Below are positions 12,610 through 30,875 of a stretch of 64,000 bases of DNA, piece after piece; positions within the stretch are counted from its first letter, which is position 1; each line of letters starts with the position of its first letter. The notes beneath the pieces are model-generated. The model saw only the letters and a list, made by a program, of their open reading frames with translations. It did not search any database and was not told the origin of the DNA. The position numbers and the translations under genes were made by a program. Source of the DNA: Melioribacteraceae bacterium (GTDB lineage Bacteria > Bacteroidota > Ignavibacteria > Ignavibacteriales > Melioribacteraceae); the NCBI GenBank assembly GCA_030584085.1, contig CP129490.1, positions 1,087,511-1,151,510 on the forward strand, read 5' to 3'.

Positions 12610-12641
12610 GTTAATCTTAGTTGATTGACTTCATTTACTAG

Positions 12642-12671
12642 GCACCTTATTTTTTATAAGGTGCTTTTTTT
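12642..12671 (+). terminator. Intrinsic terminator after the FadL-like gene
   Basis: A 9-bp perfect stem (GCACCTTAT at 12642-12650 with ATAAGGTGC at 12656-12664) has a 5-nt T loop and is followed by seven T residues. It lies just before the rsgA start, so rsgA probably has its own transcript or depends on read-through. Confidence 0.9.
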
Positions 12672-12683
12672 ATTTGGAGTAAT

Positions 12684-14536: not shown

Positions 14537-14569
14537 TGTCTCTCAAATTAGAGCCAAAATTAGTCAATT

Positions 14570-14597
14570 AAGGTAATGATTTCAATTAAATTACCTT
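14570..14597. promoter_or_regulatory. Inverted repeat in the divergent intergenic region
   Basis: AAGGTAAT at 14570-14577 and ATTACCTT at 14590-14597 form a perfect 8-bp inverted repeat with a 12-base spacer. It lies in the only spacer before the 16-kb plus-strand array. It could be an operator or chance in AT-rich DNA. No T run follows, so a terminator is unlikely. Confidence 0.25.
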
Positions 14598-14648
14598 GTT
14601 ATTATATCTGTATAAAACTATTTTTCAAATCAAATTAAGAAGAGAATT

Positions 14649-16445
14649 ATGTATAAATATGTTTTAGTTTTTATTTCTGCTTTAATGTTTTTCGCATGCT
14701 CCAGTTCACAAGATCTTCAAGAGCAAAAAGAGATTTCTGAGGACGAAGTTAAAAATAAAGCCATCGCTCAAGAAATATTTATCGAAGGTTCCCTTAGTGA
14801 AATGAGGGGAGACTATGAATCTGCGGTTAATTATTATCAACAAGCATTAAAATTAGATCCGACTCCCGGAATTAATTTTGCATTGGCAAAAAATTTAATG
14901 AGAATCAAAAAATTACCCGCCGCATTAACTCATGCTAAAGAGGCAGTGAAAAGTGAACCCAATAATAGTGAGTATAATTATTTACTTGCTACAATTTATC
15001 AAGTTGGTAATCAACCCGATTCGGCTGCTACTATTTATAATAATATTATCGCAAATGATTCAACCGATGAACGAGCATATTATTCTTTGGCGCAAATTTA
15101 CGAAACATCAAAACCCATCAAAGCTTTAGAACTTTATAACAAATTAATTGATATGATTGGTCCGGAATGGAATGTTCTCGTAAACATTGCAGATCTTAAC
15201 GAAAGAATGGGAAATGTTGATGCAACAATAGAAACTCTAGAAGAATTAATAAAAGTTGATCCTAATAATTTGCAAATGAAGAAACTGCTTATTGAGTCCT
15301 ACTTAAAAACTGAAAATTATGAAAAGTCATTGAGTATGTCGGATCAATTATTACTTCAATTTCCCGATGATACAAATCTACTCGAGTACCGTGCTAATTC
15401 ATTGGTACAATCTGGCAGATGGGAAGAAGGTGCTGAAGAATACATGAAATTGAGTAAACGCGAAGATATGCCATTGCAATCAAAGATTCATATCGGTGGA
15501 GCCTTTTTTGCAAGAGCACAGAATGATTCACTATCACTCCGACGTGCAAAACAAATTTTTACCGAAATTGATTCGGACACAACTCACTGGCAGATAAAAT
15601 TATTCTTAGCTCAAATAGCAATTGAGGAAGGTAATGATTCGCTTGCAGTTGAGAATTATAAGAAATCTTCTGAACTGGCACCCTGGAATCCTCAAATATT
15701 AATGTCGCTTGGCGGACTCCTCTTCGATTCAGCTAAATATGAAGAAGCAATCAAAGTTCTTGTACCGGCATTGGAAAGATTTCCTGATGAATTCGTGTTG
15801 AATTTAATATTGGGACTTTCTTACACACAGACAAATAAAAGTAAAGAAGCAGAGCCATATTTAAAGAAAGCATTACTACTTAATCCTGATGATTTCACCG
15901 GACTTTATGCTTACGGTGTAACCCTTAATCAACTTAAAAAGGAAGAAGAAGCACTAATATATTTGGATAAAGCACTTGAACAAGAACCACATAACGTATC
16001 GTTGATAGGGACTATCGGATTGATTCATGAAAATCTCGGTAACTCTGAGAAATCGGCTGAGTTGTATGAGCAAGCATTATTAATAGATTCAACAAACGCC
16101 TTAGTATTAAACAATTATGCCTATGCGTTAGCCGAACGAAATGTTGATTTGGAAAGAGCACTTAAGTATGTATCAAAAGCACTCGAGTTTGATTCGACAA
16201 ATTCTTCTTATTTAGATACGATTGGCTGGGTATATTTCAAGATGGGTGAATATGAGAAAGCAAAATATTATATTGAACAATCTTTAGAAACCGGACCTGA
16301 TAACGCGGAAGTGACAGATCATTTGGGTGACGTTTATTATATGCTGAATGAAAAATCTAAAGCTAGGGAATTGTGGGAAAGCGCATTTGAGTTAGACCCG
16401 GAAAGAGAAGGCTTAAAAGAAAAAATTGAAAAGGGGAGTTTGTGA
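14649..16445 (+). CDS. TPR-repeat lipoprotein
   Basis: A lipoprotein signal with lipobox FFAC (Cys about residue 17) is followed by about 580 residues of tetratricopeptide repeats. At least a dozen units can be picked out by their W/L-G-Y-A/P pattern, for example ESAVNYYQQALKLDP, EAIKVLVPALERFPD, EAEPYLKKALLLNPDD and EEALIYLDKALEQEP. The last group (ERALKYVSKALEFDS, EKAKYYIEQSLETGPD) is the most regular. TPR lipoproteins scaffold protein complexes at the envelope, and several T9SS, pilus and LPS-transport assemblies use them. The next gene starts inside its stop codon (GTG overlapping TGA), so translation is coupled. This is the first gene of the long plus-strand array that ends with the PorU-like sortase. 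Confidence 0.88.
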   Translation: MYKYVLVFISALMFFACSSSQDLQEQKEISEDEVKNKAIAQEIFIEGSLSEMRGDYESAVNYYQQALKLDPTPGINFALAKNLMRIKKLPAALTHAKEAVKSEPNNSEYNYLLATIYQVGNQPDSAATIYNNIIANDSTDERAYYSLAQIYETSKPIKALELYNKLIDMIGPEWNVLVNIADLNERMGNVDATIETLEELIKVDPNNLQMKKLLIESYLKTENYEKSLSMSDQLLLQFPDDTNLLEYRANSLVQSGRWEEGAEEYMKLSKREDMPLQSKIHIGGAFFARAQNDSLSLRRAKQIFTEIDSDTTHWQIKLFLAQIAIEEGNDSLAVENYKKSSELAPWNPQILMSLGGLLFDSAKYEEAIKVLVPALERFPDEFVLNLILGLSYTQTNKSKEAEPYLKKALLLNPDDFTGLYAYGVTLNQLKKEEEALIYLDKALEQEPHNVSLIGTIGLIHENLGNSEKSAELYEQALLIDSTNALVLNNYAYALAERNVDLERALKYVSKALEFDSTNSSYLDTIGWVYFKMGEYEKAKYYIEQSLETGPDNAEVTDHLGDVYYMLNEKSKARELWESAFELDPEREGLKEKIEKGSL

Positions 16446-17239
16446 AAAAGAAATTTGTTCGTTTTACGGTTTACTTGTTGATATTCCTTTCGGCTGCAAT
16501 AGTTTTTAATTCGTGTGTACCTTCAAAACCTGTTGACGAAGAACGTATTCTTCCGGCTGACCGGCTAATAAAAAAACTTGAAGCAAATCGAAGAAAAATA
16601 AAAACTTTCTCCGGAAGTGGAACAATTAACATTGAAAGTCCTCAGCTAACAGCTAAGGCAAGTTTCCAAGTCGTGATAAAGAAACCGGATTCAATGCAAA
16701 TTTCTTTTTATGGGCCTTTTGGAATTGATCTTGCACAAGCAGTAGCAACTAAACGTGATTTTCTTTTTTATGATGTGATTAACAATAGAGTTTACAGAGG
16801 AATTACAAAAAATTTATCATTAAAAAATATTTTTAAAGTTGATCTTACTTTTGAAGAACTTATGGATGCATTTGCCGGTGCCGTAGATTTAACTGATAAA
16901 TTACGTCGAGAACCTGATGATCTTTTTGTTAAAAATGATACTTACTACTTAACTTATTCTGATGATATTACCGGAAGAAACAGTATATATGAAATTTTAA
17001 TTGATGATCTTGCCATCACAAAGTATAAAATAATTGAGCAGCCGTCGAACTCAATTCTAGAAGGAGCTTACCGTGACTTTGATAACTTTGAAGATGTTCC
17101 GCTTCCTTATAAAATCAACGTAAACTATAAATTGATGAAACAAGATATCAATATTGAATACAGAAGTATAAAAGTTAATCAAGATATAGGGAAATTAACT
17201 TTTACAATTCCAGAGGATGCCGAAATAATTGAATGGTAA
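16442..17239 (+). CDS. LolB-like/DUF4292-type outer-membrane lipoprotein
   Basis: A signal peptide ends in the lipobox FNSC (Cys about residue 25). The body (residues about 40-265) matches the LolB-like half-barrel pattern: a KTFSGSGTINIESP opening, a QVVIKKPDSMQISFYGPFGI segment, and FYDVINNRVYRG. In Bacteroidota such DUF4292 proteins are thought to act in lipoprotein or envelope handling. In E. coli LolB inserts lipoproteins into the outer membrane. The GTG start has GGGGAG upstream and overlaps the previous stop. The gene overlaps the following EnvC-like gene by 7 bases. The trio TPR lipoprotein, DUF4292 and M23/LytM protein is a recurrent Bacteroidota neighbourhood as I remember it. Confidence 0.8.
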   Translation: MKKKFVRFTVYLLIFLSAAIVFNSCVPSKPVDEERILPADRLIKKLEANRRKIKTFSGSGTINIESPQLTAKASFQVVIKKPDSMQISFYGPFGIDLAQAVATKRDFLFYDVINNRVYRGITKNLSLKNIFKVDLTFEELMDAFAGAVDLTDKLRREPDDLFVKNDTYYLTYSDDITGRNSIYEILIDDLAITKYKIIEQPSNSILEGAYRDFDNFEDVPLPYKINVNYKLMKQDINIEYRSIKVNQDIGKLTFTIPEDAEIIEW

Positions 17240-18441
17240 AAGTGATAAAACAATACCTTATTATTTTTGTTTTGCTATCGCTCCCAATCTTTTCACAAAG
17301 TAATGAAGAGATCGAAGAGCAGAATAAAGTTTTACAAGACTTACGTTCTGAAATCACCTCATTACAAAGCAAATTAAATCAACTTTCCGATCAAGAGAAA
17401 AAATCGTTAAACGCACTACAAAATTTAAATCAGCAAAGTCTGCTTATAAACCAAGTAATAACTCGATTAAAAAATGAAGAAGCTCAAAAAGAAAGAGAGA
17501 TCGTTTCTTTGAGTAACCAGATTTCTGTTTTAGAAAGTGAAATCTCAAAGCTTAAGAAAGACTATTCGCGTTATATCGTATGGGTTTATAAAAATCAAAA
17601 AGGTAGTTTTTTAAAATTTCTCTTAAACGCTGAATCGATTAACCAAGCGCTCATACGCTATAAATATTTGAGTTACATTTCTGATGAAAAAGAAGAGACG
17701 TTGAATCAGCTTGTGGATAAAAAAGAAAAGTTTACAAAATTGGTTGCTCAAAGAGAAATAGAGCTAAAAGAAAAAGTCAGACTAGTTGCAGAAAAAGAAA
17801 ATGAACAAAGAACTTTGGATGATAAAAAAATTGCAAGTCAATCAATTATTGATAATTTGAAAAATGACCAAAACGCAGTTCTCAAGGAAATTGAAGATAA
17901 ACGACGTGCAGAAATTCAAATCAAAAATATAATTGCAAAATTAATTGAAGATGAACGTAAAAGATTAGAAGAAATGCGTTTGGCTAGAATGAACGATGAG
18001 AAAGTCATGTTTGAATATAATTACGACGACTTTGAAAACTTTGCCAATCTCGAAGGAAGAATGAATTGGCCCGTTCGCTCAGGAAGTATTATCCGTAACT
18101 TTGGCGAAAATAGAAATGTGAAATTAAATACAGTTACCTTAAATTACGGTGTAGATATTGTAACTGACATAAGCGAATCTGTATATTCGGTTGCAGAAGG
18201 TATAGTCTCCGCAATTGAGTGGATACCCGGTTACGGCAGTGTGGTCATAATAACTCACAAAAATAATTTTAGAACAGTTTACGGTCACGTAGCTGACATT
18301 AATGTAACAGAGGGACAAAAAGTTAATGGCGGAACCGTAATCGGAAAAGTAAACCCAAGCTTAGAAGGAAATATCTTACACTTTGAGATTTGGAATGAAA
18401 GGAATTATCAGAATCCCGAAGTTTGGTTGGTTAGGAAATAA
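17233..18441 (+). CDS. EnvC-like coiled-coil LytM (degenerate M23) protein
   Basis: A signal peptide (about residues 1-20, ending IFSQS) is followed by a long coiled coil of about 230 residues, rich in Gln, Glu, Lys and Leu. A C-terminal LytM domain occupies about residues 290-402. Active M23 enzymes bind zinc through HxxxD plus a later HxH. Here the first motif reads NYGVD, so the first His is Asn, whereas the Asp and the later His residues (VYGHVAD, ILHFEIW) remain. This pattern of loss, together with the coiled coil, fits an EnvC-type activator of amidases more than a working peptidase. Likely role: control of peptidoglycan hydrolysis at division or envelope remodelling. It overlaps the LolB-like gene and is 14 bases from the flippase gene. 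Confidence 0.88.
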   Translation: MVKVIKQYLIIFVLLSLPIFSQSNEEIEEQNKVLQDLRSEITSLQSKLNQLSDQEKKSLNALQNLNQQSLLINQVITRLKNEEAQKEREIVSLSNQISVLESEISKLKKDYSRYIVWVYKNQKGSFLKFLLNAESINQALIRYKYLSYISDEKEETLNQLVDKKEKFTKLVAQREIELKEKVRLVAEKENEQRTLDDKKIASQSIIDNLKNDQNAVLKEIEDKRRAEIQIKNIIAKLIEDERKRLEEMRLARMNDEKVMFEYNYDDFENFANLEGRMNWPVRSGSIIRNFGENRNVKLNTVTLNYGVDIVTDISESVYSVAEGIVSAIEWIPGYGSVVIITHKNNFRTVYGHVADINVTEGQKVNGGTVIGKVNPSLEGNILHFEIWNERNYQNPEVWLVRK

Positions 18442-18455
18442 TAACTGAAATTATT

Positions 18456-19691
18456 TTGATAAAAAAATTAGCTATAAATTTCTCTTCTCTAACCATTTTA
18501 CAGATCAGTAATTATGTTATCCCGTTAATTACATTTCCTTATTTAGTTCGTGTTTTGGGCCCGACTAATTTTGGATTGGCAAACTTTGCTTTTGCCTTTT
18601 TAGTTTACTTTAATACCGTTATAGAATTTGGTTTTAATTTTTCATCTACCCGCGAGATAGCTCAACTAAAAGATGACAAAAACAAAATTAATCAACTTTT
18701 TAATCTTACCTTTTTCAGTAAAATTATTTTACTTATCCCAATTTCAATTTTGTATTTTATTCTGATTTCTATAATTCCATTCTTTAGTGAAAACTACTTA
18801 ATATATACGATTGCATTTTTATCAATAATCGGCAACTTATTATTCCCGGTTTGGTTTTTCCAGGGTATTGAGAAAATGTATTACATAACAATCTTCAATA
18901 TTTTCTTTAGGATAATAGGTGTTGTGTTTATTTTTTTATTTGTGATAGAAGAGAAAGATTTGATAACATATTTGTTAATTACCTCCGGTGTTCTAGTGTT
19001 GACCGGAGCTTTTTCTATTTACTTTTTGTTACAGCAAAAATTAGTTGACTTAGCTATTCCGAAGTTTGCATCTATTAAACAACATTTAAGTGAAGGGTTT
19101 AATTTATTCTCATCTCAATACTTAATAATGCTTTATACTACATCAAATACATTTATTCTGGGATTGATAAGTGGTAACACTGCAGTAGGATTTTTTACGG
19201 GTGCGGATAAAATTCGTTCAGCTGTTCAGAATATAGGGGGAATTGCCGGACAAACAATCTTTCCGCATATATCTAATTTGTTTCGGGAAAGTAAAGTCTC
19301 GACTATAAAATTTCTTAAAAAATATTTAATAGTTATTGGAATACCGGCATTTTTACTAAGCACTTTTCTTTTTTTATTTAGCGAAGAGTTGATCCTTCTT
19401 ATATTGGGGGAGCAATATTTAAGCTCAGTTCAAATATTAAAATGGCTGGCTTATCTTCCTTTCATTATATTCTTAAGTAACGTTTTTGGAATACAATTTA
19501 TGCTTGGTCAAGGATTTGATAGTGAGTTCAGAAAAATTATCTTTATTGGCGCAATACTGAATTTACTTTTATTAATAAATTTTGTTCCGCGATATGGAGC
19601 AGAAGGTACAGCAGCTAGTATGCTGATTACTGAAATAGCAATCACATTATTAACATTCGCATTTGTTATCCGACATAAAAATGAAATATGA
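18456..19691 (+). CDS. Wzx-type polysaccharide flippase (MOP superfamily)
   Basis: A 411-residue integral membrane protein with about 12 hydrophobic segments. The opening block is typical of Wzx/RfbX proteins: ISNYVIPLITFPYLVRVLGP, then FGLANFAFAF and FGFNFSSTREIA. Wzx proteins flip undecaprenyl-diphosphate-linked oligosaccharides to the periplasmic face of the inner membrane. The start is TTG, giving MIKKLAINFSSLTIL. It is followed with an 11-base overlap by glf, so the cargo is probably a glycan containing galactofuranose. No polymerase (Wzy), chain-length regulator (Wzz) or O-antigen ligase is found nearby. Confidence 0.92.
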   Translation: MIKKLAINFSSLTILQISNYVIPLITFPYLVRVLGPTNFGLANFAFAFLVYFNTVIEFGFNFSSTREIAQLKDDKNKINQLFNLTFFSKIILLIPISILYFILISIIPFFSENYLIYTIAFLSIIGNLLFPVWFFQGIEKMYYITIFNIFFRIIGVVFIFLFVIEEKDLITYLLITSGVLVLTGAFSIYFLLQQKLVDLAIPKFASIKQHLSEGFNLFSSQYLIMLYTTSNTFILGLISGNTAVGFFTGADKIRSAVQNIGGIAGQTIFPHISNLFRESKVSTIKFLKKYLIVIGIPAFLLSTFLFLFSEELILLILGEQYLSSVQILKWLAYLPFIIFLSNVFGIQFMLGQGFDSEFRKIIFIGAILNLLLLINFVPRYGAEGTAASMLITEIAITLLTFAFVIRHKNEI

Positions 19692-20757
19692 TTATCTTAT
19701 AGTCGGAGCGGGTTTTGCCGGGTCAGTTATGGCAGAACGATTAGCTTCTCAACTAAACAAAAAAGTGTTAGTTGTGGAGAAACGTGGACATATTGCAGGT
19801 AACGCATATGACGAATATGACGAACATGGGATCTTAGTTCATCGTTATGGACCGCATATTTTTCATACAAACAGTAAAAAAGTTTTCGATTACTTAAGTC
19901 AATTTACCGAGTGGATTACTTATGAACACAAAGTTCTGGCAAAATTAAACGGAAGTTTGTACCCAATTCCTATTAATAGATTAACAGTCAATAAACTTTA
20001 TCAAAAGGATTTTACAACAGAAAAAGAAGTGGCAGAGTATTTTGAATCAGTAAGAGAGAGAAGACACCCAATACTAAATTCTGAGGATATCATTGTCAAT
20101 CAAGTTGGAGTTGATTTATTTGAGAAATTTTTCAGATATTATACAAAGAAACAATGGGACTTGGAACCGAGAGAATTAAACCCATCTGTTTGTGGCAGAA
20201 TTCCGGTTAGAACAAATGATGATTGCAGATATTTTACAGATAAATTTCAATTTATGCCGAAGGATGGATACACAAAAATGTTTGAAAAGATTTTATCACA
20301 TAAAAATATCGAAGTCGTTTTGAATACAGATTTTAAGGATATAGTAGAAGGAGTTAAATTTGATAAAATGATCTACACCGGACCGATTGATTATTTTTTT
20401 GATTATCAATTTGGAAAACTTCCTTATAGATCGATTAGGTTTGAGTGGGAGACATTGGAAACTTCTGACTATCAACGAGCCCCGGTGATTAATTACGTAG
20501 ATGACTCATTTGAATTTACACGCGTGACAGAATACAAAAAACTAACGGGACAAAAAAATAATTACACAACAATAACAAGAGAATACGCATCTACAAAAGA
20601 TGATCCTTATTATCCAATTCCAACGAAAGGTAATCAGCAATTATATCAGAAATATTTTGGAGAGAGTTCTAAACTTAAGAGTGTTTCTTTCTTAGGCCGA
20701 CTTGCAGAATATAAGTATTATAATATGGATCAGGTGGTAGCAAGAATCTTACAATAA
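19681..20757 (+). CDS. glf: UDP-galactopyranose mutase
   Basis: This FAD enzyme interconverts UDP-galactopyranose and UDP-galactofuranose, supplying Galf for cell-surface glycans. The FAD-binding motif DYLIVGAGFAGSVMAERLA is at the N-terminus, followed by VVEKRGHIAGNAYDE. The family block HRYGPHIFHTNSKKVFDYLS follows. Substrate-contact regions FTRVTEYKK and GRLAEYKYYNMDQ are near the C-terminus. Length about 358 is normal. An in-frame upstream start at 19663 would add six residues, but the canonical N-terminus begins at MKYDYLIVGAG, so ATG 19681 is chosen. The gene overlaps wzx by 11 bases. Confidence 0.97.
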   Translation: MKYDYLIVGAGFAGSVMAERLASQLNKKVLVVEKRGHIAGNAYDEYDEHGILVHRYGPHIFHTNSKKVFDYLSQFTEWITYEHKVLAKLNGSLYPIPINRLTVNKLYQKDFTTEKEVAEYFESVRERRHPILNSEDIIVNQVGVDLFEKFFRYYTKKQWDLEPRELNPSVCGRIPVRTNDDCRYFTDKFQFMPKDGYTKMFEKILSHKNIEVVLNTDFKDIVEGVKFDKMIYTGPIDYFFDYQFGKLPYRSIRFEWETLETSDYQRAPVINYVDDSFEFTRVTEYKKLTGQKNNYTTITREYASTKDDPYYPIPTKGNQQLYQKYFGESSKLKSVSFLGRLAEYKYYNMDQVVARILQ

Positions 20758-20763
20758 ATTACT

Positions 20764-21669
20764 ATGAAAATATGTGCTGTGGTTGTAACATATAATCGAT
20801 TGAGTGAATTAAAGAAATGTATTAATTCACTAAAAATGCAAACAAGAAAACTGGATTCGATTTTAGTTATCAACAATTCCAGTACTGATGGAACTCTAAA
20901 TTGGTTGAAAGTACAAGAAGAAATAGAGTTTAGCACACAACCAAATTTGGGAGGTGCTGGAGGTTTTCATACTGGAATAAAAATAGCGTATGAAAAGGGT
21001 TTTGATTGGGTGTGGTGTATGGATGATGATGGGTATCCATTAAGAGATTGTTTGGAAAATTTAGTTCGCTCAATTAAATTATGTACTAATATAGATATTG
21101 TAGGCCCGTTAGTTGTCCCCATGAGTAAATCAAACATTTTATCGTTCCAGACTCCATTTTTTGATAATAATTGTAATGAAAAATCTAGTACCATTTTAGT
21201 AGAAGAAATAAAAAAAAGGGCAGTTAATAATCTTTATAAGTGTCATGCAGTTTTTTTCAACGGTGTTCTAATTAATAAGAACACTATTGTTAAAGTAGGT
21301 TTCCCAGAGGAAAAATTTTTTATGTACGGGGATGAAATAGAATATTATCAAAGAATTATAGAAAATGGATTTGGTGTTTTCACTAATATCGAAGCACTTT
21401 TTATTCATCCTATGAATAAATTCAAAATAATTAAATTCCTGAATCAAGATATTTTTGATGGAAAATATGACTGGAAAGCATACGTATATATTCGTAATAG
21501 AATATATCTGCATAATAAAAAATATCACGGTTTTGCACTTAAATTTATTCTTTCACAGTTAATTTATGTACTTAGAATGCGAAAAATTACTGTGTTAAAA
21601 TTAGTATTATTAGCTTATTTTCATGGCATAAATGCCAACTTCGATTATGATTATAAAGAACTAAAATGA
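20764..21669 (+). CDS. Family 2 glycosyltransferase, likely galactofuranosyltransferase
   Basis: A GT-A fold transferase of 301 residues. The opening is CAVVVTYNRLSELKKCI, then LVINNSSTDGT. The block QPNLGGAGGFHTGI and the metal-binding triad WCMDDDGYP (Asp87-Asp89) follow. This combination is characteristic of the GlfT/rhamnosyl-type GT2 group, which includes Galf transferases. With glf seven bases upstream, UDP-Galf is the most likely donor (inference). The catalytic-base region FFMYGDEIEYYQRI is also present. The next gene overlaps by 4 bases (ATGA). Confidence 0.85.
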   Translation: MKICAVVVTYNRLSELKKCINSLKMQTRKLDSILVINNSSTDGTLNWLKVQEEIEFSTQPNLGGAGGFHTGIKIAYEKGFDWVWCMDDDGYPLRDCLENLVRSIKLCTNIDIVGPLVVPMSKSNILSFQTPFFDNNCNEKSSTILVEEIKKRAVNNLYKCHAVFFNGVLINKNTIVKVGFPEEKFFMYGDEIEYYQRIIENGFGVFTNIEALFIHPMNKFKIIKFLNQDIFDGKYDWKAYVYIRNRIYLHNKKYHGFALKFILSQLIYVLRMRKITVLKLVLLAYFHGINANFDYDYKELK

Positions 21670-22766
21670 GAATTCTTCTATTAGGAAGATATAATCCGTC
21701 TGAAGTACTTGCTGGTCCAGAAAAATTTGCTAAAAGATTATACCATAATTTATTAGCGCAAAAAATAGAATGTGAATTTGTAGAATATTTTTTTGACGGT
21801 AAAAAGTATTCATTATCCAAAAAGTTATTTGGGAATGATACATTAATTTTAAATTCCGTAAAAATTTTCAGGCTGGGTTTGGTTCCATTTTTTTTATTTT
21901 TAGTTAAACGAAAGCCACAAATTATTCATCTCGTTACGTATGAACGATTCGAATTTATTGCTTATTTATATTCTTTTTTTGCAAGAACTCAAATATTATT
22001 TTCAGTGCATGGATTTGTTAACTATGAAAATCATTCATTAGTGTCAAGAAAAGTGGTTTCTACTTTAAAAATAAAAGATAAATTATTCGAATATATCTTT
22101 ATGATAAAGTCCGACCAAATCCATATCCCATCAGACCAGTATAAAAAAAAGTTGTTGGAATTATATAAGCTAAACGAAACAAAAGTAATAGTTATACCTA
22201 ACGGTGTTGATGAAGATTTTTTTGTAAGTAAACTGAATAATATTAAGACTCACAACAAAATGAAAACCGTATTTATTGGTGATGAATATCGTCAAGAAAA
22301 AGGTTTAGAGTTTTTACTTAAAAATATAGAGAACATTAATGAATATTCAGAAGTATACCTGCTAGGTGATGTTTTTACATCAAAAAACAACTATAAAGAT
22401 TTACACATTGTTCCAAAGATGTCGAAAAGCGACATGAAGAATTTATTTATTCAAATGGATATTATTTTATCATGCAGTTATTATGATTTATTTTCAATTT
22501 CAGTCTTAGAAGGGGCGGCAATTGGATTATTCCCAGTCCTTACTCGAGAAACAGGCATATCGGAATTATTTCTAAAATTAAATATTGGAGAAGTTTTCGA
22601 CTATAGTGATAGCGAATCCTTTGTAAATATATTTCAGAAATTATTCTTTAATAGATCTTTGTTGGAAAAACACATTCAGAATAAAGATGTTCTACAAAAA
22701 TACAGTTGGAAAAATATTTCAATTTCTTTCCAGGACTTGTATTATCAGATGTTAATATCACAATGA
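21666..22766 (+). CDS. GT-B family (GT4-like) glycosyltransferase
   Basis: A 366-residue transferase with two Rossmann-like domains. The N-terminal half begins MRILLLGRYNPSEVLAGPEKFA and contains ILFSVHGFVNYE. The hinge carries VIVIPNGVDEDFF. The C-terminal half has TVFIGDEYRQEKGLEFLL and the donor-site segment DLFSISVLEGAAIGLFPV. The usual E-x7-E signature appears as D-x7-E. Family members use nucleotide-sugar donors with retention of configuration; donor and acceptor are not readable here. The gene is coupled to both neighbours by 4-base ATGA overlaps. Confidence 0.88.
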   Translation: MRILLLGRYNPSEVLAGPEKFAKRLYHNLLAQKIECEFVEYFFDGKKYSLSKKLFGNDTLILNSVKIFRLGLVPFFLFLVKRKPQIIHLVTYERFEFIAYLYSFFARTQILFSVHGFVNYENHSLVSRKVVSTLKIKDKLFEYIFMIKSDQIHIPSDQYKKKLLELYKLNETKVIVIPNGVDEDFFVSKLNNIKTHNKMKTVFIGDEYRQEKGLEFLLKNIENINEYSEVYLLGDVFTSKNNYKDLHIVPKMSKSDMKNLFIQMDIILSCSYYDLFSISVLEGAAIGLFPVLTRETGISELFLKLNIGEVFDYSDSESFVNIFQKLFFNRSLLEKHIQNKDVLQKYSWKNISISFQDLYYQMLISQ

Positions 22767-23662
22767 ACTTTATGCCAATATCGATGGAATTATCAATATT
22801 AATTATTACACACAATTCAGAAGGGTATATTAAAAATTGCCTTAATTCCATTTTTGCTTCAAAATCTAATCCTGACATGGAGGTAATAATTGTAGATAAC
22901 TTTTCTAGCGACAAGACATTAGATACAATTCAAAGTACAGATTCCCCCGTTAAAATTATTCGGAATAGAGAAAACATTGGCTTTGCAAAAGCTAATAATC
23001 AAGCAATGAAAATTGCAAAAGGGAAATATATCTTTCTATTGAATCCAGATACTGAAATTGATTCTGATGCCTTAGAAATATTTTATAATTATCTGGAAGA
23101 TAAAGATAATGCTAATGTTTGGTGCGTTGGCGGACAGTTAGTTGATGAAAATGGGAATCCTTCTAAATCATATGGAAGATTTCCTAATTTATTAGATGTA
23201 CTAATTGAGCAATTTGGAATAAAAGGAATAGCATTAAAAATTTTTGGACAAAAATGGATTTCGCGAAATCGCTGGATAGGAAATGAAATAATAGTACCTT
23301 TTATTATGGGCTGTAATATGTTTATAAGAAGAGAAACCTTGGATAAGATCGGACATTTTAATGAGTCTTTTTTCTTGAACTATGAAGAAGTTGAATTGAG
23401 TTGGAGAGCAAAACAAAAGGGTTCTAAAAGTGTAGTATTGCCTCAAGTTGTCATAAAACATTACTCAGGAAAGTCATTCACAAACTTGAAAGAGTATCTG
23501 AATCATTTGTGGTTAGGACAAGTCTACTTTTTCAAATTTACCCGGGGGAAAGTATATTTTAAATTAGTTAAACTAATTCATTTAATTGGATCATTACTGA
23601 GGCACATGTTAAAAATGGATAAAAACTATCTGTCTCAGTTTAGAAATATAAAAGCAATATAA
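22763..23662 (+). CDS. Family 2 glycosyltransferase (rhamnosyltransferase-like)
   Basis: A GT-A transferase of about 299 residues. Motifs include LSILIITHNSEGYIKNCLNS, EVIIVDNFSSDKT, RNRENIGFAKANNQAM and the metal-binding FLLNPDTEIDSDAL. Later blocks are GCNMFIRRETLDKIGHFNE and FFLNYEEVELSWRAKQKG. This set resembles the dTDP-rhamnosyl and related transferases of O-antigen clusters. An upstream in-frame start at 22706 would lie deep in the previous gene; ATG 22763 forms the ATGA overlap and gives the natural N-terminus. Acceptor unknown. Confidence 0.86.
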   Translation: MNFMPISMELSILIITHNSEGYIKNCLNSIFASKSNPDMEVIIVDNFSSDKTLDTIQSTDSPVKIIRNRENIGFAKANNQAMKIAKGKYIFLLNPDTEIDSDALEIFYNYLEDKDNANVWCVGGQLVDENGNPSKSYGRFPNLLDVLIEQFGIKGIALKIFGQKWISRNRWIGNEIIVPFIMGCNMFIRRETLDKIGHFNESFFLNYEEVELSWRAKQKGSKSVVLPQVVIKHYSGKSFTNLKEYLNHLWLGQVYFFKFTRGKVYFKLVKLIHLIGSLLRHMLKMDKNYLSQFRNIKAI

Positions 23663-23663
23663 A

Positions 23664-24644
23664 ATGCCTATTTCTGTTATCACAACAACCTATAATTGCG
23701 GCGAATATATTTCTGATGCAATTAGAAGTATATTAAATCAGACTTATCGTGATTTTGAATATCTTATAATCGATGACGGTTCAACGGATAACACTGAAGA
23801 GATAATAAATAGTATAGATGACAAAAGAATAAAGTATTATAAAATTGAACACATTGGTCGTTCTAGATCTCTCAATTTCGCACTTCAAAAAGCGGGATAT
23901 GACCTCATTGCATTGATGGATGCTGATGATATTTCTCATCCGCTGAGATTAGAGAAACAATTAGAAGTTTACAAGGGATCTAATCAACTTGTTTTTTGTG
24001 ATACTGCCTATTTTATTAATGAGAAAATTAAGTATTTAATTATAAGTGAACCTCAATCAGATTATATTAATAAATTGATTCTTCACGGTCACTTTAATAA
24101 TTCTTCATCACTGTTCAATAGGTTGTATATTTTGAACTATGGTGGATATAATGAAGATTTATTAGCTTATGAAGATTATGATCTTTGGCTACGAATTATG
24201 AAAGACAGTGAATTTATTGTCGCCTCAGGAATTTACCATTATGTTCGACTCCGAAATGACTCTATGACTACTACCAATCCAGGCAAGCTTAAATACATTC
24301 TTTACTCAATTCAAGAATATTATTTCAAGAATCTTACAGATTACGGAATAAGAAATCCAAATGATAAACTAGCACTCAAAGGATGGCGAGAATTTTTTTA
24401 TGGGGAGTTAGAATTATGCAGGGAATATTGGGACGAATTAAAACTTTCAGATAGAAGCATCAAAATTCATATAGCTTATGTAATGAGTTACTTACCGTCA
24501 ATAATTGTTAAGTGGTTTAAAAACAAAAGAATTTTTCTACGGTTAAAATATATTTTTTACTATCTGAAATCATTTCGTAGCACTCAGCTCGAATTTTATA
24601 GAGTTCTTAACAAAATTGCGAGTAAGGAACCACCATATTGTTAG
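23664..24644 (+). CDS. Family 2 glycosyltransferase
   Basis: A GT-A transferase of 326 residues. MPISVITTTYNCGEYISDAI opens the fold, followed by FEYLIIDDGSTDNTEEII, the metal motif LIALMDADDISHPLRLEKQ and LAYEDYDLWLRIMKDSE. The last part (residues about 240-326) is basic and helical, with WFKNKRIFLRLKYIFYY, and may touch the membrane. This class commonly adds Gal, Glc or GlcNAc to lipid-linked glycans; donor not identifiable. It starts 2 bases after the preceding stop and overlaps the WecG-like gene by 7 bases. Confidence 0.86.
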   Translation: MPISVITTTYNCGEYISDAIRSILNQTYRDFEYLIIDDGSTDNTEEIINSIDDKRIKYYKIEHIGRSRSLNFALQKAGYDLIALMDADDISHPLRLEKQLEVYKGSNQLVFCDTAYFINEKIKYLIISEPQSDYINKLILHGHFNNSSSLFNRLYILNYGGYNEDLLAYEDYDLWLRIMKDSEFIVASGIYHYVRLRNDSMTTTNPGKLKYILYSIQEYYFKNLTDYGIRNPNDKLALKGWREFFYGELELCREYWDELKLSDRSIKIHIAYVMSYLPSIIVKWFKNKRIFLRLKYIFYYLKSFRSTQLEFYRVLNKIASKEPPYC

Positions 24645-25357
24645 ATATCAATCAAATAATTAGCAAACTGATCCTTAAAGAAGATATTGTTTTAGATTTG
24701 TTGGATTCTTCGCTAATAGAATCTGAACAGTTACTAATTACGTATTGTAATCAACATTGTTTCAATACGTTAGTGGAAGATCAATTATACACAAATACTA
24801 TTGCAGATAACTTTGAAGTTTTTGTTGATGGTTATGGAATGATAAAAGCATACAATTTTTTATTCAATACTCAATTTAATTCTTTTAATGCAACAGATTT
24901 GTATAATAAATTTCTAATTTTACTTTCCCAAAAAGACATCCCAGTTTTTTTGATCGGAGGGAAATTTTCAGATGAATTATTGGAAAACAATAACCAATAC
25001 AACGTAAATATAGTTGGCTATCAAAATGGGTATTTCGAATTATCAAGTATTGAAAACATAGCACAAAAAATTCGAAAAGCTAATTCAAGAGTTGTTCTAA
25101 TAGGTATGGGTGTTCCTAAGCAAGAAATATTCGCAAAAAAGTTATCAGAATTTTTTACGGATAAGCTCTTTTTGTGTGTTGGTAATTATCTTGAATATTA
25201 TCTAGGTACTTCAAAAAGGATCCCGTTTTTTTTTCGAAATAAAGGAATTGAATGGATTTACAGGTTATTACAAGAGCCAAAACGCTTATGGAAACGCTAC
25301 CTTATCGGCATACCTTTATTTATATTTAGAGTACTTAAAGAAAAATACAGAAAGTAA
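24638..25357 (+). CDS. WecG/TagA/CpsF-family glycosyltransferase, divergent
   Basis: WecG/TagA/CpsF enzymes (GT26) transfer ManNAc, ManNAcA or related sugars to undecaprenyl-PP-GlcNAc at the membrane. The family features here are CNQHCFNTL (Asn39), the catalytic-type Asp64 in VFVDGYGMIKA, VFLIGGKFSDELL, VLIGMGVPKQEIFAKKL, and the membrane-associated tail KGIEWIYRLLQEPKRLWKRYL. Deviations: the usual VGGAFDFLAG block reads VGNYLEYYLG, and the Arg-rich turn after the catalytic region reads FNSFNATDL. The start is TTG inside the end of the previous gene. The PorU-like gene begins 6 bases after its stop. Confidence 0.84.
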   Translation: MLDINQIISKLILKEDIVLDLLDSSLIESEQLLITYCNQHCFNTLVEDQLYTNTIADNFEVFVDGYGMIKAYNFLFNTQFNSFNATDLYNKFLILLSQKDIPVFLIGGKFSDELLENNNQYNVNIVGYQNGYFELSSIENIAQKIRKANSRVVLIGMGVPKQEIFAKKLSEFFTDKLFLCVGNYLEYYLGTSKRIPFFFRNKGIEWIYRLLQEPKRLWKRYLIGIPLFIFRVLKEKYRK

Positions 25358-25363
25358 ACTACA

Positions 25364-28300
25364 ATGTGGTTTGTAAACAAATCAATTATTCTATTTTTTG
25401 TTTTAGGCCTTACAATTCTTGCGCAATTTAAGGTAAGTGACAACTCTTTTCAATTTTCAGTATCAAGTCCAGATTATGATTTTGTTATCGATTCTTCAAA
25501 TTTTTACAAAAAAAATGACTTTATCGATTTTACTAATCCCTCGAAATCCGGAGAGTATAAATTACCTAGCCAAAATTTAATTTTTGCAATACCACCAAAT
25601 TCCAATCCCTCGTTAAAAATACTAAGCAAAAAAGAAAAAAATTTAGAGAACACAATCCCAGAGATTAATCCGAGGGCGATCAAATTAAATGACTCAACAT
25701 TGGTTTACGAAAATGCCGAAGCAAATACTCAATTATTAATAAATATTACTAAACCCATTGTGGAATTAGGACAAAAATTTTGGTTAAGAGATTTCTATTG
25801 TATAGAAGTCAAAATCAACTCTCATCAATTTGATCCGAAATCTAATTCAATTATTATTTATGAAAATGTTGAAATCGAATTAGAATTTGAAGGTTCCTAC
25901 AATATTCAAGATCATTCACCAATTCAAATTAAATCACAATTTGATCTTTCATTAAAAGAAATCATTTACAATAGCAACATTGCTGAACAGTTCAGAAGCA
26001 ATCGAAGAGTGATTGAGATTACAAATTCAGATTCTTGGATTAACTATAACAACGATTATATCAAAATTGCAGTTGCGCAAGATGGAATTCATAGAATAAC
26101 CAAAACCGATTTGGGAAACTTGGGCGTACCTGTCAATTCGTTAGACCCGGAATCTTTCCAATTATTTGAAAGTGGACTTGAGCAATTAATATATGTAAGT
26201 GGTGAAGATGACGGCACGTTTGATGAAGGTGATTACATTGAATTTTACGGTACAAAGAATTATTCTAAAAATTATTATCGTGAAATAAATTCTGATAACC
26301 AGCCATACAATACTTATATGAATATTTATACAGATACAACTTATTACTTTCTGACTTGGGGCAGTTCTCAAGGAGTAAGATATAAACCCGACAATTCAAT
26401 TGTCCCGGGTGATTATGATGAATTAAACTATCATACAGCGCTTATGCATTTTGAAGAAAACACAATGTATCAAAATCTCAATAACAACGAACTGCTAAAC
26501 CAAACCTCTGATTGGAATAAGAATAAAACTTGGTATTGGAATTGGATTTTTACAAGTCGTAACTATACAATAAATCTGCAGGATGTTTATCCAAACGTTG
26601 ACGCAAAATTTTATCTTAAGTTAACCAGCGCAGGATCAAATATTTCAAGCAATGCTCATCAAGTTAGATTGAATTTTAATTCAACAAAAATTGATTCACA
26701 ATCTATCGATCGATTCAAACAGACTATTATGACCGGAATCGTTGATGCTTCTATTTTAAACACCGGTAATAATACAGTGAATGTGCAAAATTATCCCAAT
26801 GGTACAGTCCCAAACTATTTAGCATACGATTGGTACGAAATTGAGTATCCACGTTACAATAAATTTATCAATGGTTCACTGATTCTAACTGTTCCGGACG
26901 GTATTAACAACCAAATAGTAGAGTTGAAAATCACTAATGCAGAAAATATTGATTATGCTATTTATAAAATCAATGGCAATTCAAAAAAGATATTTAATTA
27001 TTTATATGGTTCTGGCAATTTAACTTTTATTGACACTATTTCAACAAGTGATAAATATGCCATATTCTCAAATGGAGCAGTGCTCAAACCGAAAATTGTT
27101 TTTAAAGGTAAATTCACAAATCTGCGAGCTGACAATTCTCAAGCTGATTATATAGGACTTACGGTAAATGAATTTTCTTCTTCTGTATCAAATTATTTAT
27201 CGGAGATTGAGCAATTATATTCTATCAAGTCAAAAAAAATATTAGTCGAAGATATTTTTGATGAATTTGGTTTCGGTTATCCAACACCTGAGTCAATTAA
27301 AGAATTTGTGCAATACGCATTTAATAATTGGACTGCACCCAAGCCTTCTTATTTAACATTGTTTGGAGATACCAACTACGATTATAAAGATTATGTTTTC
27401 AACAATGTCGGTGTAAAACTCAGTACTAATTATATACCGGCGTTCGGTAATCCTATTAGTGATAATTGGTATGCGATATGGGATCAAAATGCTCCATTTA
27501 TACCGCAACTTAAAGTGGGTAGAATACCAATTCTCTCAAATAATGATCTGCAATATTATTTAGATAAAATAAAAAATAATACATCTGCAGAATTTAATGA
27601 GTGGAATAAAAGGTTTTTACTTTTTTCCGGAGGCGTTGGTAGTAATCCAAATGAATTGAAACAATTAAAAGCAGCAAATGATTCGGTTGTTACAAAGATT
27701 ATTGAGCCCCGACCTATTTCGGGTAATTATGATCACTTCTATAAGACGACTAACCCTCAATCGGATTTCGGTCCGTTTACTTCACAAGAAATAAATCAAG
27801 CTATTAATGACGGAGGTTTGTTTATTTCTTATGTAGGTCATAGCGGAACGGCTACCTGGGATAATAGTATCAACACGGTTTCGCAATTGAAAAACAATGT
27901 TAACAGAAATCCGGTTATCAGTGACTTCGGATGTTCGACAAATAAGTACGGCGAACCAGATATAATATGCTTCGGTGAAAGATTTTTGTTCGATACTGAC
28001 GGACAAGCTTTAAATTACATCGGTAATTCATCGCTGGGTTTTTTATCAACCGCTGTTTCAGCACCAAAATATTTTTATGAATCATTTAAGCTAGATTCAC
28101 TTTACGAAGTCGGTAATGCTCATATACATGCCAAATCAAAGTTGTATCAAATTTTCGGAAATTCACAAGTCTTCAAAGTATTTTCTCTATCTAATATTAT
28201 TTTAGGTGATCCTGCTGTTAGATTGAGATTTCCGGATTTACCGAATCTAACATTTGAAGAAAATCCTTTTCTATTTACAAATGCGGATTTAAACGATATA

Positions 28301-30703
28301 GCTGATTCAGTTGAAATAGGAATAATTATTAAGAACTTGGGCTTGGCACCATCCAGAGAATTTGAAATTCGATTCGAGCACTATTATGAAAATGATCTAT
28401 TAGAAACTAAAACCAATCGTTACATATTACCCGGTTCTGAAGACACAGTAAAAGTTTGGGTGAAGACAAAAGGATTATCAGGTCAGCACCGATTGGAAAT
28501 AATTCTTGATTCTCAAAATGAAATTTTAGAACTATCCGAAACTGATAATACTAATTCCGAATCATTTAATGTATTTTCATTCTCTTTGCGCGATCTTCTG
28601 CCTTATACTCAATTAAATGGTAAACAGAATATTCTAACAATTCTAAACCCAATTAGATATTCGGAAGATGAATTTAATATTTTATTGCAAATATATGGAT
28701 CGGAAGATTTTTCCAATCCACAAGAATTAACTTTTCCTTCGACCGAATTAATAACAACAAGCCCAACATTAAGTTTATCAAATAATAGATATTGGCTTCG
28801 TTATAAAATTGATAAATCTGAATTTGATTTCTCTGCTCCAAAATCTTTTTCAGGTTATGACAACTATGATTTCAAAATTGATGACGATTATTCTTTTAGT
28901 AATCAATCAAGAATAGGTGTTGGTTATAATAATGGAGAACTGAGTTTATCGATTGATACTTTAAATATTTCTGTACTTTCTGCAGGCTGGAATGCCGGTG
29001 CCACATGTGTAATTTCGGTTGACGGAATCAATCAACTTGATAACTCATTCTTTGCCGGTATGGGAATTGTTGTCTTCGATCCCCTAACAATGAAGGTTGA
29101 TACTTCTGCTTGGTTTCAATTATTTGATAATCGACCCAATGCAGAGGCTTTAGCTGCACTTATCAACAATATCCCGTCAGGTAAAATAGTAGTTATGGGT
29201 GTTGCTGATGATGGACAGCATAGATTAATCCCGGAGTTACGAACTGCAATAAAAACATTAGGCAGCACAAAAATTGATCAATTAGTTTTTCGGGGTTCAT
29301 GGGCAATTATCGGACGAAAAGGTGCTTCAGCCGGTGACACCGATATTCTCGAAGATGTAAAAGGTGTTTATGATGGTTCCATTTATCTTGAAAAAGAATA
29401 CATTGTCCCGAATCAAACCGGTTATTTAATAACCGAAAGGCTAGGACCCGTCTCACTTTGGGATACACTATTAGTAGATTATCAATTACCGAATGGGGCG
29501 GAGTTGAGTGTCACTCCTATCGGGATTAAGCAGAATGAGGAAGTTGATACACTTAGCACATTTATACTTAACTCGAGTACAATTCCGATCAATTTTATTA
29601 GTCCCAAATCTTATCCTTATGCTAAATTTAAATTGAAGTTTACGCAAAATGAAAATGGTGAATCGCCAAGTATTTCACAAATTGGAGTTAGTCATCATAA
29701 CACACCTGAACTTGCAATAAATTATCAAACTGCTTCAATAGATCGTGATACGGTTATGCAAGGGGAATCCATTGCTGTGAACTACAAAGCAAGTAATGTC
29801 GGTGAAGGACGAGCACTTAATGTTAGAACTAAAGTCGATCTGTTTTTTAATAATAATATCTTAGAAACAGTTTATGATTCGACGCTCCTTTATATTAACT
29901 CGGAATCATCAATCGATATTGGTTTTGAGAAATTCATTACAACTGAATACGAATCGGGCAATTATAAGTTTGTCATTGGTCTCGATACTGATAATACAAC
30001 TTTAGAACTATATGAGGACAATAATTCTTTCGAATTACCCTTTCTTGTTACAAGAGATACCGTTACATCAATTTCATCCGCAGTTGTATCTGCAAATTTT
30101 GACGGCTATGAAATCTATGACGGTGACTATGTTTCCTCCTCACCCGAGATAGATATTATCCTAGATTATGAAGGTCAATTTGAAGTTTCCGATACAAACT
30201 CATTTCAAATTTCACTGAATGGAAGAAAGATTAATTTCAGCAGTTTGAACACTGTCTATGAGACACAAAATAATAGAATCATTTTTAAGTACAACCCCAC
30301 TTTAGAGGACGGAGATTATTCCTTATCGGTAGTCGGAGAGAACATTCGACCGGCAAATAGTTCGGATAATGAATTTATTCGCTACTTTAAAATATCAAGC
30401 GAAAATAAAATTTTATATCCGTATAATTTCCCGAATCCATTTGTTAATGAAACTCATTTCACATTTAAGTTAACTCAAATCCCAAATGAAGTTCGCATTA
30501 AAATATTCACTATTGCCGGTAGACTCATTCGTGAAATTAAAGTTGACAGATCACAACTCAATTTCGATTTCAACAGAATCTTTTGGGACGGAAGAGATGA
30601 AGACGGAGATTTGTTAGCGAACGGAGTTTATCTCTATAAAATTATTTCAACCGATGACGATGAAACTGTTTCGGTAACAAGTAAACTCGCCATTGTCAGG
30701 TAG
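25364..30703 (+). CDS. porU: PorU-like T9SS sortase (C25 family) with CARDB-like and FAM3/ILEI-like domains
   Basis: PorU is the surface cysteine transpeptidase that removes T9SS sorting domains and joins cargo to a lipopolysaccharide anchor. This 1779-residue protein has a signal peptide (about 1-21), an N-terminal beta region, and a C25 gingipain-type domain at about residues 600-930. The catalytic His826 lies in SYVGHSGTATWDN and Cys857 in SDFGCSTNKYG. A CARDB-like domain (about 959-1070), a FAM3/ILEI-like domain (about 1183-1330, with GIVVFDPLTMKV and FRGSWAIIGRKG), and a second CARDB-like domain (about 1448-1565) follow. A FlgD/T9SS-type C-terminal domain (1687-1779) opens with NFPNPF. 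P. gingivalis PorU is near 1150 residues, so about 600 extra residues are present, mostly after the catalytic domain. It follows a sugar-transferase gene by 6 bases. A C25 protease that is cargo and not the sortase is the alternative. Confidence 0.82.
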   Translation: MWFVNKSIILFFVLGLTILAQFKVSDNSFQFSVSSPDYDFVIDSSNFYKKNDFIDFTNPSKSGEYKLPSQNLIFAIPPNSNPSLKILSKKEKNLENTIPEINPRAIKLNDSTLVYENAEANTQLLINITKPIVELGQKFWLRDFYCIEVKINSHQFDPKSNSIIIYENVEIELEFEGSYNIQDHSPIQIKSQFDLSLKEIIYNSNIAEQFRSNRRVIEITNSDSWINYNNDYIKIAVAQDGIHRITKTDLGNLGVPVNSLDPESFQLFESGLEQLIYVSGEDDGTFDEGDYIEFYGTKNYSKNYYREINSDNQPYNTYMNIYTDTTYYFLTWGSSQGVRYKPDNSIVPGDYDELNYHTALMHFEENTMYQNLNNNELLNQTSDWNKNKTWYWNWIFTSRNYTINLQDVYPNVDAKFYLKLTSAGSNISSNAHQVRLNFNSTKIDSQSIDRFKQTIMTGIVDASILNTGNNTVNVQNYPNGTVPNYLAYDWYEIEYPRYNKFINGSLILTVPDGINNQIVELKITNAENIDYAIYKINGNSKKIFNYLYGSGNLTFIDTISTSDKYAIFSNGAVLKPKIVFKGKFTNLRADNSQADYIGLTVNEFSSSVSNYLSEIEQLYSIKSKKILVEDIFDEFGFGYPTPESIKEFVQYAFNNWTAPKPSYLTLFGDTNYDYKDYVFNNVGVKLSTNYIPAFGNPISDNWYAIWDQNAPFIPQLKVGRIPILSNNDLQYYLDKIKNNTSAEFNEWNKRFLLFSGGVGSNPNELKQLKAANDSVVTKIIEPRPISGNYDHFYKTTNPQSDFGPFTSQEINQAINDGGLFISYVGHSGTATWDNSINTVSQLKNNVNRNPVISDFGCSTNKYGEPDIICFGERFLFDTDGQALNYIGNSSLGFLSTAVSAPKYFYESFKLDSLYEVGNAHIHAKSKLYQIFGNSQVFKVFSLSNIILGDPAVRLRFPDLPNLTFEENPFLFTNADLNDIADSVEIGIIIKNLGLAPSREFEIRFEHYYENDLLETKTNRYILPGSEDTVKVWVKTKGLSGQHRLEIILDSQNEILELSETDNTNSESFNVFSFSLRDLLPYTQLNGKQNILTILNPIRYSEDEFNILLQIYGSEDFSNPQELTFPSTELITTSPTLSLSNNRYWLRYKIDKSEFDFSAPKSFSGYDNYDFKIDDDYSFSNQSRIGVGYNNGELSLSIDTLNISVLSAGWNAGATCVISVDGINQLDNSFFAGMGIVVFDPLTMKVDTSAWFQLFDNRPNAEALAALINNIPSGKIVVMGVADDGQHRLIPELRTAIKTLGSTKIDQLVFRGSWAIIGRKGASAGDTDILEDVKGVYDGSIYLEKEYIVPNQTGYLITERLGPVSLWDTLLVDYQLPNGAELSVTPIGIKQNEEVDTLSTFILNSSTIPINFISPKSYPYAKFKLKFTQNENGESPSISQIGVSHHNTPELAINYQTASIDRDTVMQGESIAVNYKASNVGEGRALNVRTKVDLFFNNNILETVYDSTLLYINSESSIDIGFEKFITTEYESGNYKFVIGLDTDNTTLELYEDNNSFELPFLVTRDTVTSISSAVVSANFDGYEIYDGDYVSSSPEIDIILDYEGQFEVSDTNSFQISLNGRKINFSSLNTVYETQNNRIIFKYNPTLEDGDYSLSVVGENIRPANSSDNEFIRYFKISSENKILYPYNFPNPFVNETHFTFKLTQIPNEVRIKIFTIAGRLIREIKVDRSQLNFDFNRIFWDGRDEDGDLLANGVYLYKIISTDDDETVSVTSKLAIVR

Positions 30704-30750: not shown

Positions 30751-30875
30751 AATAATTTATCGATAATGTCTGCATCATTCTTTTAAATACTTACGACGTT
30801 TACAGATAACCTATCCCAAGTAAATCATTTTAAAAAATTTTATCTTTACAGATAATAATTACATGGAATCCTAAA

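Follow-up and report, generated by a model that had tools for sequence, protein, structure and literature searches.

A variable glycan cassette linked to a PorU2-like C25 protein in Ignavibacteria

The locus and the boundaries of the unit

The window, the whole 64,000-nucleotide stretch of Melioribacteraceae DNA analysed here (contig CP129490.1), lies at 1.09-1.15 Mb in a genome of 3.74 Mb assembled as one contig. As the first-pass annotation of this DNA had described, eleven consecutive plus-strand ORFs span 14649-30703 and no gap between them exceeds 14 bases; the widest lies between EnvC and wzx. Neighbouring ORFs overlap by up to 61 bases when the longest frames are taken; if the nearer ATGs are used as starts of glf (19681) and the glycosyltransferase GT2b (22763), the overlaps shrink to 4-11 bases. 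Gene families were assigned with Pfam and NCBIfam profiles, which agree with the names first given to these genes (TPR, LolB, EnvC-like, Wzx, Glf, glycosyltransferases, WecG and C25) and yield the following features.

14649-16445, + strand: TPR protein (profile); upstream flank, outside the unit
16442-17239, + strand: putative lipoprotein insertase of DUF4292/LolB1 type (profile); upstream flank, outside the unit
17233-18441, + strand: EnvC-like M23 protein (profile); upstream flank, outside the unit
18456-19691, + strand: Wzx-type flippase, first gene of the cassette (PF01943, 164.7 bits)
19681-20757, + strand: glf, UDP-galactopyranose mutase (TIGR00031, 371 bits, cut-off 304); longest frame 19663-20757, from TTG
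20764-21669, + strand: GT2 glycosyltransferase, nearest GlfT1 (131 bits, under the cut-off of 330)
21666-22766, + strand: GT4-type glycosyltransferase (profile)
22763-23662, + strand: GT2 glycosyltransferase, GT2b (profile); longest frame 22706-23662, from TTG
23664-24644, + strand: GT2 glycosyltransferase (profile)
24638-25357, + strand: WecG/TagA/CpsF-family glycosyltransferase (PF03808, 133.3 bits, cut-off 27.4; TIGR00696, 102.1 bits, cut-off 69)
25364-30703, + strand: PorU2-like C25 protein, 1779 aa, putative glycan-specific T9SS sortase (profiles)
27158-28225, + strand: Peptidase C25 domain, residues 599-954 (profile; structure match to RgpB)
29006-29353, + strand: ILEI/FAM3 domain, residues ~1215-1330, POMGnT1-stem fold (PF15711, 72 bits, cut-off 27)
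30431-30700, + strand: FlgD-Ig-like C-terminal domain, residues ~1690-1779, probable T9SS CTD (PF13860, 25.0 bits, cut-off 27)
30876-32219, + strand: conserved gene "d447", downstream flank; adjoins EnvC at empty sites

We compared the neighbourhoods of 34 PorU2-like genes of the order, some of the stretches being cut short by sequence ends. The full pattern reads rsgA, ATP-grasp, TPR, LolB, EnvC, variable glycan cassette, wecG, PorU2 and d447; LolB is present in 22 of the 34 stretches, shortened ones included. In five PorU2-less genomes (G011, G018, G036, G038 and G046) EnvC abuts d447, and in G008 it also stands directly before d447, with PorU2 elsewhere in the genome. The block is likewise elsewhere in G029, G030, G044, G050 and G051, in which other genes come after EnvC; in family f30 it sits after a lepA-like gene (L121, L122), and the stretches fetched for families f24, f28 and f29 contain it without the trio. 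Of 21 genomes tested for LolB, 18 have it, block present or not. Because EnvC abuts d447 at empty sites and the block recurs at other sites, the evolutionary unit is wzx...wecG-porU2, and the TPR-LolB-EnvC trio, originally counted as part of it, is backbone that persists in PorU2-less relatives.

Several further observations concern these flanks. d447 bounds the insertion site in many relatives, and its sole profile match, to ImpL63, is weak. A lone wzx follows EnvC in the PorU2-less G041 (L092) and also in L098 (G030), whose block is elsewhere; possibly both are relics of a lost cassette. The contig ends after EnvC in G033 and after a wzx in G001 (L088). A divergent ATP-grasp (RimK-like) gene at 13634-14536 (minus strand) is kept beside the trio, empty sites included; it was considered as an amine supplier and rejected, since it adjoins the trio in PorU2-less relatives too. 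A scan for promoters and terminators gave about as many as chance predicts (84 against 85.4 expected, and 8 against 6.9).

A PorU2-like paralogue with a fused ILEI domain

C25 proteins in 58 genomes, the window's own included, fall into three kinds, of ~1780 aa (the window protein), ~1910 aa (class b) and ~1330 aa (PorU). The best model for the window protein is PorU2 NF052324, at 396 bits under a curated cut-off of 450; canonical PorU NF033707 gives 277.7 bits, under its cut-off of 420. We name the protein "PorU2-like" because PorU2 is its best family, yet the score falls below cut-off, and by these profile scores it is a paralogue, not this genome's PorU. The first-pass annotation erred on this point: canonical PorU (989 bits) is encoded at 2.34 Mb, 1.2 Mb from the window, where it adjoins PorV and a T9SS M6-like protein. 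Around the canonical PorU loci of the order, the models used found no glycan genes (0/11).

H826 and C857, which we take from C25 motifs to be the catalytic pair, are kept in 79/79 aligned PorU2-like rows. A structure model of residues 570-1430, built from 58 aligned sequences (mean pLDDT 89.7), places the C25 domain nearest the gingipains RgpB and Kgp (Z 36.8-38.1; for RgpB, Z 38 and 2.8 Å over 325 residues), and the match of the region to PorU 6za2 is a longer, looser alignment (Z 19.9, 8.7 Å). The modelled ILEI domain matches POMGnT1 stem entries (Z 19.4-20.5, 2.1-2.3 Å, 142-144 residues; for 5ggf, Z 20.5, rmsd 2.1, 143 residues) and FAM3 monomers (Z 19.1-19.4). According to the available part of one report, POMGnT1 binds beta-GlcNAc via Arg129, Asp179 and Arg207 (PMC9802357). 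In the 5ggj alignment D1282 and R1310 of the PorU2-like protein fall on POMGnT1 D179 and R207, a mapping whose numbering is set by the 28-residue spacing and which covers Asp179 and Arg207 only; D occupies position 1282 in 43 of the 79 rows and R position 1310 in 57. The modelled fold suggests that the fused FAM3/POMGnT1-stem-like domain may bind sugar.

The ILEI domain is present in all 33 PorU2-like proteins longer than 1700 aa in the order set and absent from canonical PorU proteins (0/11). It is weak or missing in PorU2 of the phylum's other classes: matches under 1e-5 occur in 2 of 21 long proteins from other-class PorU2 loci, and of two such proteins run against Pfam one has a sub-threshold ILEI match. 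At the C-terminus of the window protein, Por_Secre_tail gave no match at E 0.001 and FlgD_ig reached 25.0 bits against a cut-off of 27; from its sequence, this FlgD-Ig-like region is a probable T9SS CTD. PorU2-like proteins of ~2080-2500 aa, seemingly enlarged by additional or duplicated segments, occur in L178, L179, L181 and L203 and in the rows for G369, G373 and G380. In the single-contig genome G010 (L065) the PorU2 reading frame is split over three frames, by decay or sequencing error, and the wecG alongside looks intact. A KSB1 bacterium record, outside Bacteroidota by its title (L207), has a PorU2-like gene, perhaps transferred, in a wzx/glycosyltransferase locus with no wecG in the stretch.

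The class-b C25 genes also lie in glycan loci. GlmS is directly 3' of them in 10/10 loci fetched (L068-L077; e.g. L077:10013-15736), and each locus also has Wzy-like, DegT, Bac_transf, CapD or glycosyltransferase genes, with at least two glycosyltransferase-model matches in five of the ten. Among the rows listed, a PF02397 protein is found within 4 kb of the class-b C25 gene in 18 of 22 class-b genomes, a count that omits G016, G031 and G043 (partial or shorter frames). No wecG was found near class-b C25 genes (0/10 loci), and no ILEI domain in class-b proteins (0/10).

The PorU2-like protein could act as a sortase-like transferase, the reading that we favour, or as a gingipain-like surface protease whose FAM3-like domain holds the glycan of its own cell and which cleaves without conjugating. 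The protease reading would account for the linked glycan genes, since the glycan would be the docking site of the enzyme, and it agrees with the gingipain-like C25 fold, with the presence of canonical PorU in the same genome and with the retention of SprA and CTD cargo in PorU2-less relatives. T9SS SprA was found in 15/15 genomes and CTD matches in all 15 (132 in the window's own genome), block present or not, so T9SS is independent of the block. On the other hand, residues 222-1062 of the protein align with the PorU2 model and 229-959 with the PorU model, and a second PorU-like paralogue, class b, is also encoded in a glycan locus; we consider the protease reading unlikely.

Linkage, co-occurrence and exchange of the cassette

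Counts of wecG at PorU2-like loci required at least 3 kb of upstream sequence, which skipped 3, 1 and 25 loci in the PorU2 sets and 1 in the other-class set. For the order, 28 of 31 loci have wecG within the fetched sequence, 25 of them within 1.5 kb; at L061, one of the three misses, it is just past the stretch, downstream (L100). Further class loci, family f21 excepted, have it in 14 of 15 cases, and named loci in 45 of 51; the named set shares genomes with the order set and is not independent of it. We separated family f21 only once its loci had been inspected: wecG is at none of its four PorU2-like loci, none of which is a glycan locus, and with f21 included the class count is 14/19. At the f21 loci (L108-L111) the PorU2-like gene stands away from glycan genes, in tandem in L110, and the f21 genomes G266, G267 and G268 have WecG elsewhere or at a place outside the rows listed. 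wecG was found at 0/11 canonical PorU loci of the order and, near PorU2 of the phylum's other classes, at 0/19 loci; three of the 19 have at least two glycosyltransferase matches and two a wzx-type match. The linkage of wecG with PorU2 is thus real and class-wide with exceptions, and it is tied to the ILEI-bearing PorU2-like group. The sortase-glycan linkage first proposed from one genome extends far beyond it, but concerns the PorU2-like paralogue and not PorU, and Galf is not a constant part of the cluster, glf being present in 19/31 order loci.

Distances come from listed rows that include 121 of the 187 genomes with WecG and 133 of the 170 with PorU2. Both genes occur in 78 of the genomes listed, on the same contig in 59 and on different contigs in 19 (G044 and G051 have WecG on another contig than PorU2). 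In all 59 same-contig pairs among these rows the two genes are at most 15 kb apart, and in 48 at most 1 kb; wecG is upstream of PorU2 in 58/59, on the same strand in 47 and on the opposite strand in 11. Since wecG is on the opposite strand in 11/59 of the genomes listed, a single transcript for wecG and PorU2 is not essential. Stygiobacter electus 09-Me (L149), a strain record and not a metagenome assembly, has the same wzx-GT-wecG-porU2 order.

Co-occurrence across the class was searched with WecG at E 0.001 and the window protein at E 1e-65, leaving out genomes less than 90% complete. Uncorrected for kinship, 379 class genomes comprise 153 with both genes, 17 with PorU2 only, 34 with WecG only and 175 with neither, so that one gene occurs without the other in 51. 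For the order, 53 genomes give 38 with both, 3 with PorU2 only and 12 with neither; assemblies of at most 100 contigs give 26, 7 and no discordant genome. The order count omits five of the 58 genomes: G021, G024, G031 and G042 are less than 90% complete with no complete search pair (G042 nonetheless has both genes in L066), and G023 has WecG with a PorU2 fragment below threshold only. Three of the 12 "neither" genomes are doubtful, namely G001, whose trio contig ends after wzx, and G027 and G028, with short C-terminal PorU2-like pieces; all three are assemblies of at least 300 contigs, outside the table for 100 contigs or fewer. On the LolB+EnvC tree the block label changes six times, and both genes change together in five supported independent pairs; the sign test gives p 0.0625, below which it cannot fall with only five such changes. 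The main tree test excludes G043, which has a 703-aa PorU2-like piece but lacks WecG; counted as PorU2 without WecG, this genome adds one disagreeing pair.

Comparison with the sister species G002 reveals that the cassette was swapped like an O-antigen locus between conserved flanks and PorU2 was kept. At the DNA level, identity falls from 71% over 11896-18439 to an undetectable level over 18440-25243, then stands at 83.5% over 25244-30703 and at 73.5% over 30809-31792; protein identity is 33% for WecG, 25% for Wzx and 85% for PorU2; the G002 cassette comprises Wzx-like, GT2, GT4, GT4, GT9, RmlD and WecG genes. As PorU2 is 85% identical while the glycan genes, WecG included, were replaced, PorU2 would have to accept different glycans. 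Fourfold sites differ at 221/540 in PorU2 and at 196/323 in four backbone genes (p 2e-8), and within PorU2 the fourfold differences per 200-residue block are 0.25-0.50 over the first 1400 residues and 0.51 and 0.80 in the last two blocks. This mosaic fits recombination, with selection on codons as the alternative.

In enteric bacteria galF and gnd are conserved flanks of O-antigen loci, and PorU2 could be a mere flank of this sort at a polysaccharide recombination hotspot, linked to the glycan genes by position and not by function. Replacement of the cassette between conserved flanks and the divergence mosaic within PorU2 agree with that idea; however, PorU2 is missing together with the cassette at empty sites, accompanies it at other sites and co-occurs with WecG even when unlinked (G044, G051), which makes a purely positional link quite improbable.

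Interpretation and comparison with known systems

The chemistry of the cassette glycan was approached through family models. The window WecG scores 115 bits against the ManNAcA-specific NF002980, under its cut-off of 323. A PF00953 search of the window's own genome gave one match, a 374-aa frame that we assign to MraY on account of its length, and no WecA-type priming enzyme beyond it; UDP-GlcNAc 2-epimerase, a marker of ManNAc supply, had no strong match in the WecG-bearing G014, G025, G026, G048, G056 and G057. Because neither search gave such a match, we set aside the textbook WecG substrate. All 58 of 58 genomes have PF02397 priming enzymes, which therefore do not discriminate. Wzy was not found in the window cassette by Pfam or NCBIfam, and some other loci hold unnamed multi-pass proteins. 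In the available parts of the respective reports, P. gingivalis PorU attaches cargo to A-LPS, which PorZ delivers (PMC8545088), the bond running through an amine on the linking sugar that the Wbp/Vim route makes (PMC7468200), and the Prevotella intermedia study describes linking sugars as differing between T9SS species, its authors expecting several pathways (PMC11969387). The window cassette has no obvious gene for an amine-bearing linking sugar of the Wbp/Vim-product type. Six of the seven genes lying between wecG and PorU2 in L040, L054, L055 and L106 were considered as candidate amino-acid ligases, five having no Pfam match at 1e-4 and the sixth being PMT_2-like; the seventh gene lies in L106.

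We propose, with a probability of about 0.58, that the locus combines a glycan cassette open to exchange with a dedicated sortase-like transferase, which would transfer cargo to the cassette glycan. The variable glycosyltransferases and the WecG-type enzyme would build a surface oligosaccharide, Wzx would flip it, and a putative ligase would display it on the cell surface. The surface PorU2-like C25 protein would then bind this glycan via its fused FAM3/POMGnT1-stem-like (ILEI) domain, and its His/Cys transpeptidase site would link the glycan to the C-terminus newly formed on T9SS cargo, perhaps on only part of that cargo. Canonical PorU has its own separate locus, and the cassette would be exchanged like an O-antigen locus with PorU2 kept. 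The proposal builds on the integrity of the module, co-occurrence, cassette exchange, the conserved His/Cys pair and the fused fold; sugar binding and transpeptidation by PorU2, its cargo and a lipid anchor are what we infer by analogy. Counted against it are the lack of an amine source in the cassette, the retention of PorU2 while the cassette was replaced, the variability of D1282/R1310, the unlinked f21 loci, the 19 of 78 listed genomes with the genes on separate contigs, the 51/379 discordant genomes, the sign-test p of 0.0625 and the broken G010 frame. The earlier view of one 16-kb unit on one transcript, from the trio to the genome's PorU, that makes an A-LPS-type anchor and the main sortase fits the gapless array but is highly improbable, given that canonical PorU is elsewhere and the PorU identity contradicted, that the trio persists without the block and that wecG is on the opposite strand in 11/59 listed genomes.

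Under the transferase reading, these environmental bacteria inherit the glycan genes together with an enzyme that probably attaches secreted proteins to the surface sugar chain. A possible but doubtful extension is that Ignavibacteria-type Bacteroidota hold several PorU-derived sortases, each coupled to a glycan-making locus of its own (PorU2-like with WecG cassettes, class b with the Bac_transf-DegT-CapD-GlmS locus), which would place T9SS cargo onto different exchangeable glycans beside canonical PorU. Synthesis of the T9SS cargo anchor outside a few oral species now has candidate glycan genes in these genomes, which also offer a sortase paralogue and natural knock-outs in the empty-site relatives. 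A block inherited with a sortase-like gene provides a route to study how protein anchors are made and varied.

No paper joining PorU2 with type IX secretion, or PorU with WecG, was found in the open-licence literature, and the available text of the LolB1 paper (PMC11885536) has nothing on this gene arrangement; likewise, no linkage of glycan and sortase genes is seen in the available part of the Prevotella intermedia account of cargo glycosylation (PMC11969387). Like O-antigen cassettes, the block has Wzx, variable glycosyltransferases, conserved flanks and replacement between close relatives; it differs in that no Wzy was found and a sortase-like gene stands at its end. PorU2 NF052324 is the best family of the window protein (396 bits, below the 450-bit cut-off), whereas PorU2 of other classes lacks wecG (0/19) and has a weak or missing ILEI domain. 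The window domain shares the fold of the POMGnT1 stem and FAM3 (ILEI) and has an Asp and an Arg at the equivalent positions of the GlcNAc site, but is fused to a C25 peptidase. With the PorU/A-LPS systems of Porphyromonas gingivalis and Tannerella forsythia the window protein has in common the C25 fold, the His/Cys site, a likely CTD and a link between sortase and surface glycan; unlike it, canonical PorU of this order is not encoded with glycan genes (11 loci seen). Where P. gingivalis uses a separate A-LPS-binding PorZ, as described in the available part of PMC8545088, the window protein carries a glycan-binding-type fold of its own, and the fusion to a FAM3/POMGnT1-type domain hints at a way for a sortase to recognise its glycan with no need of PorZ.
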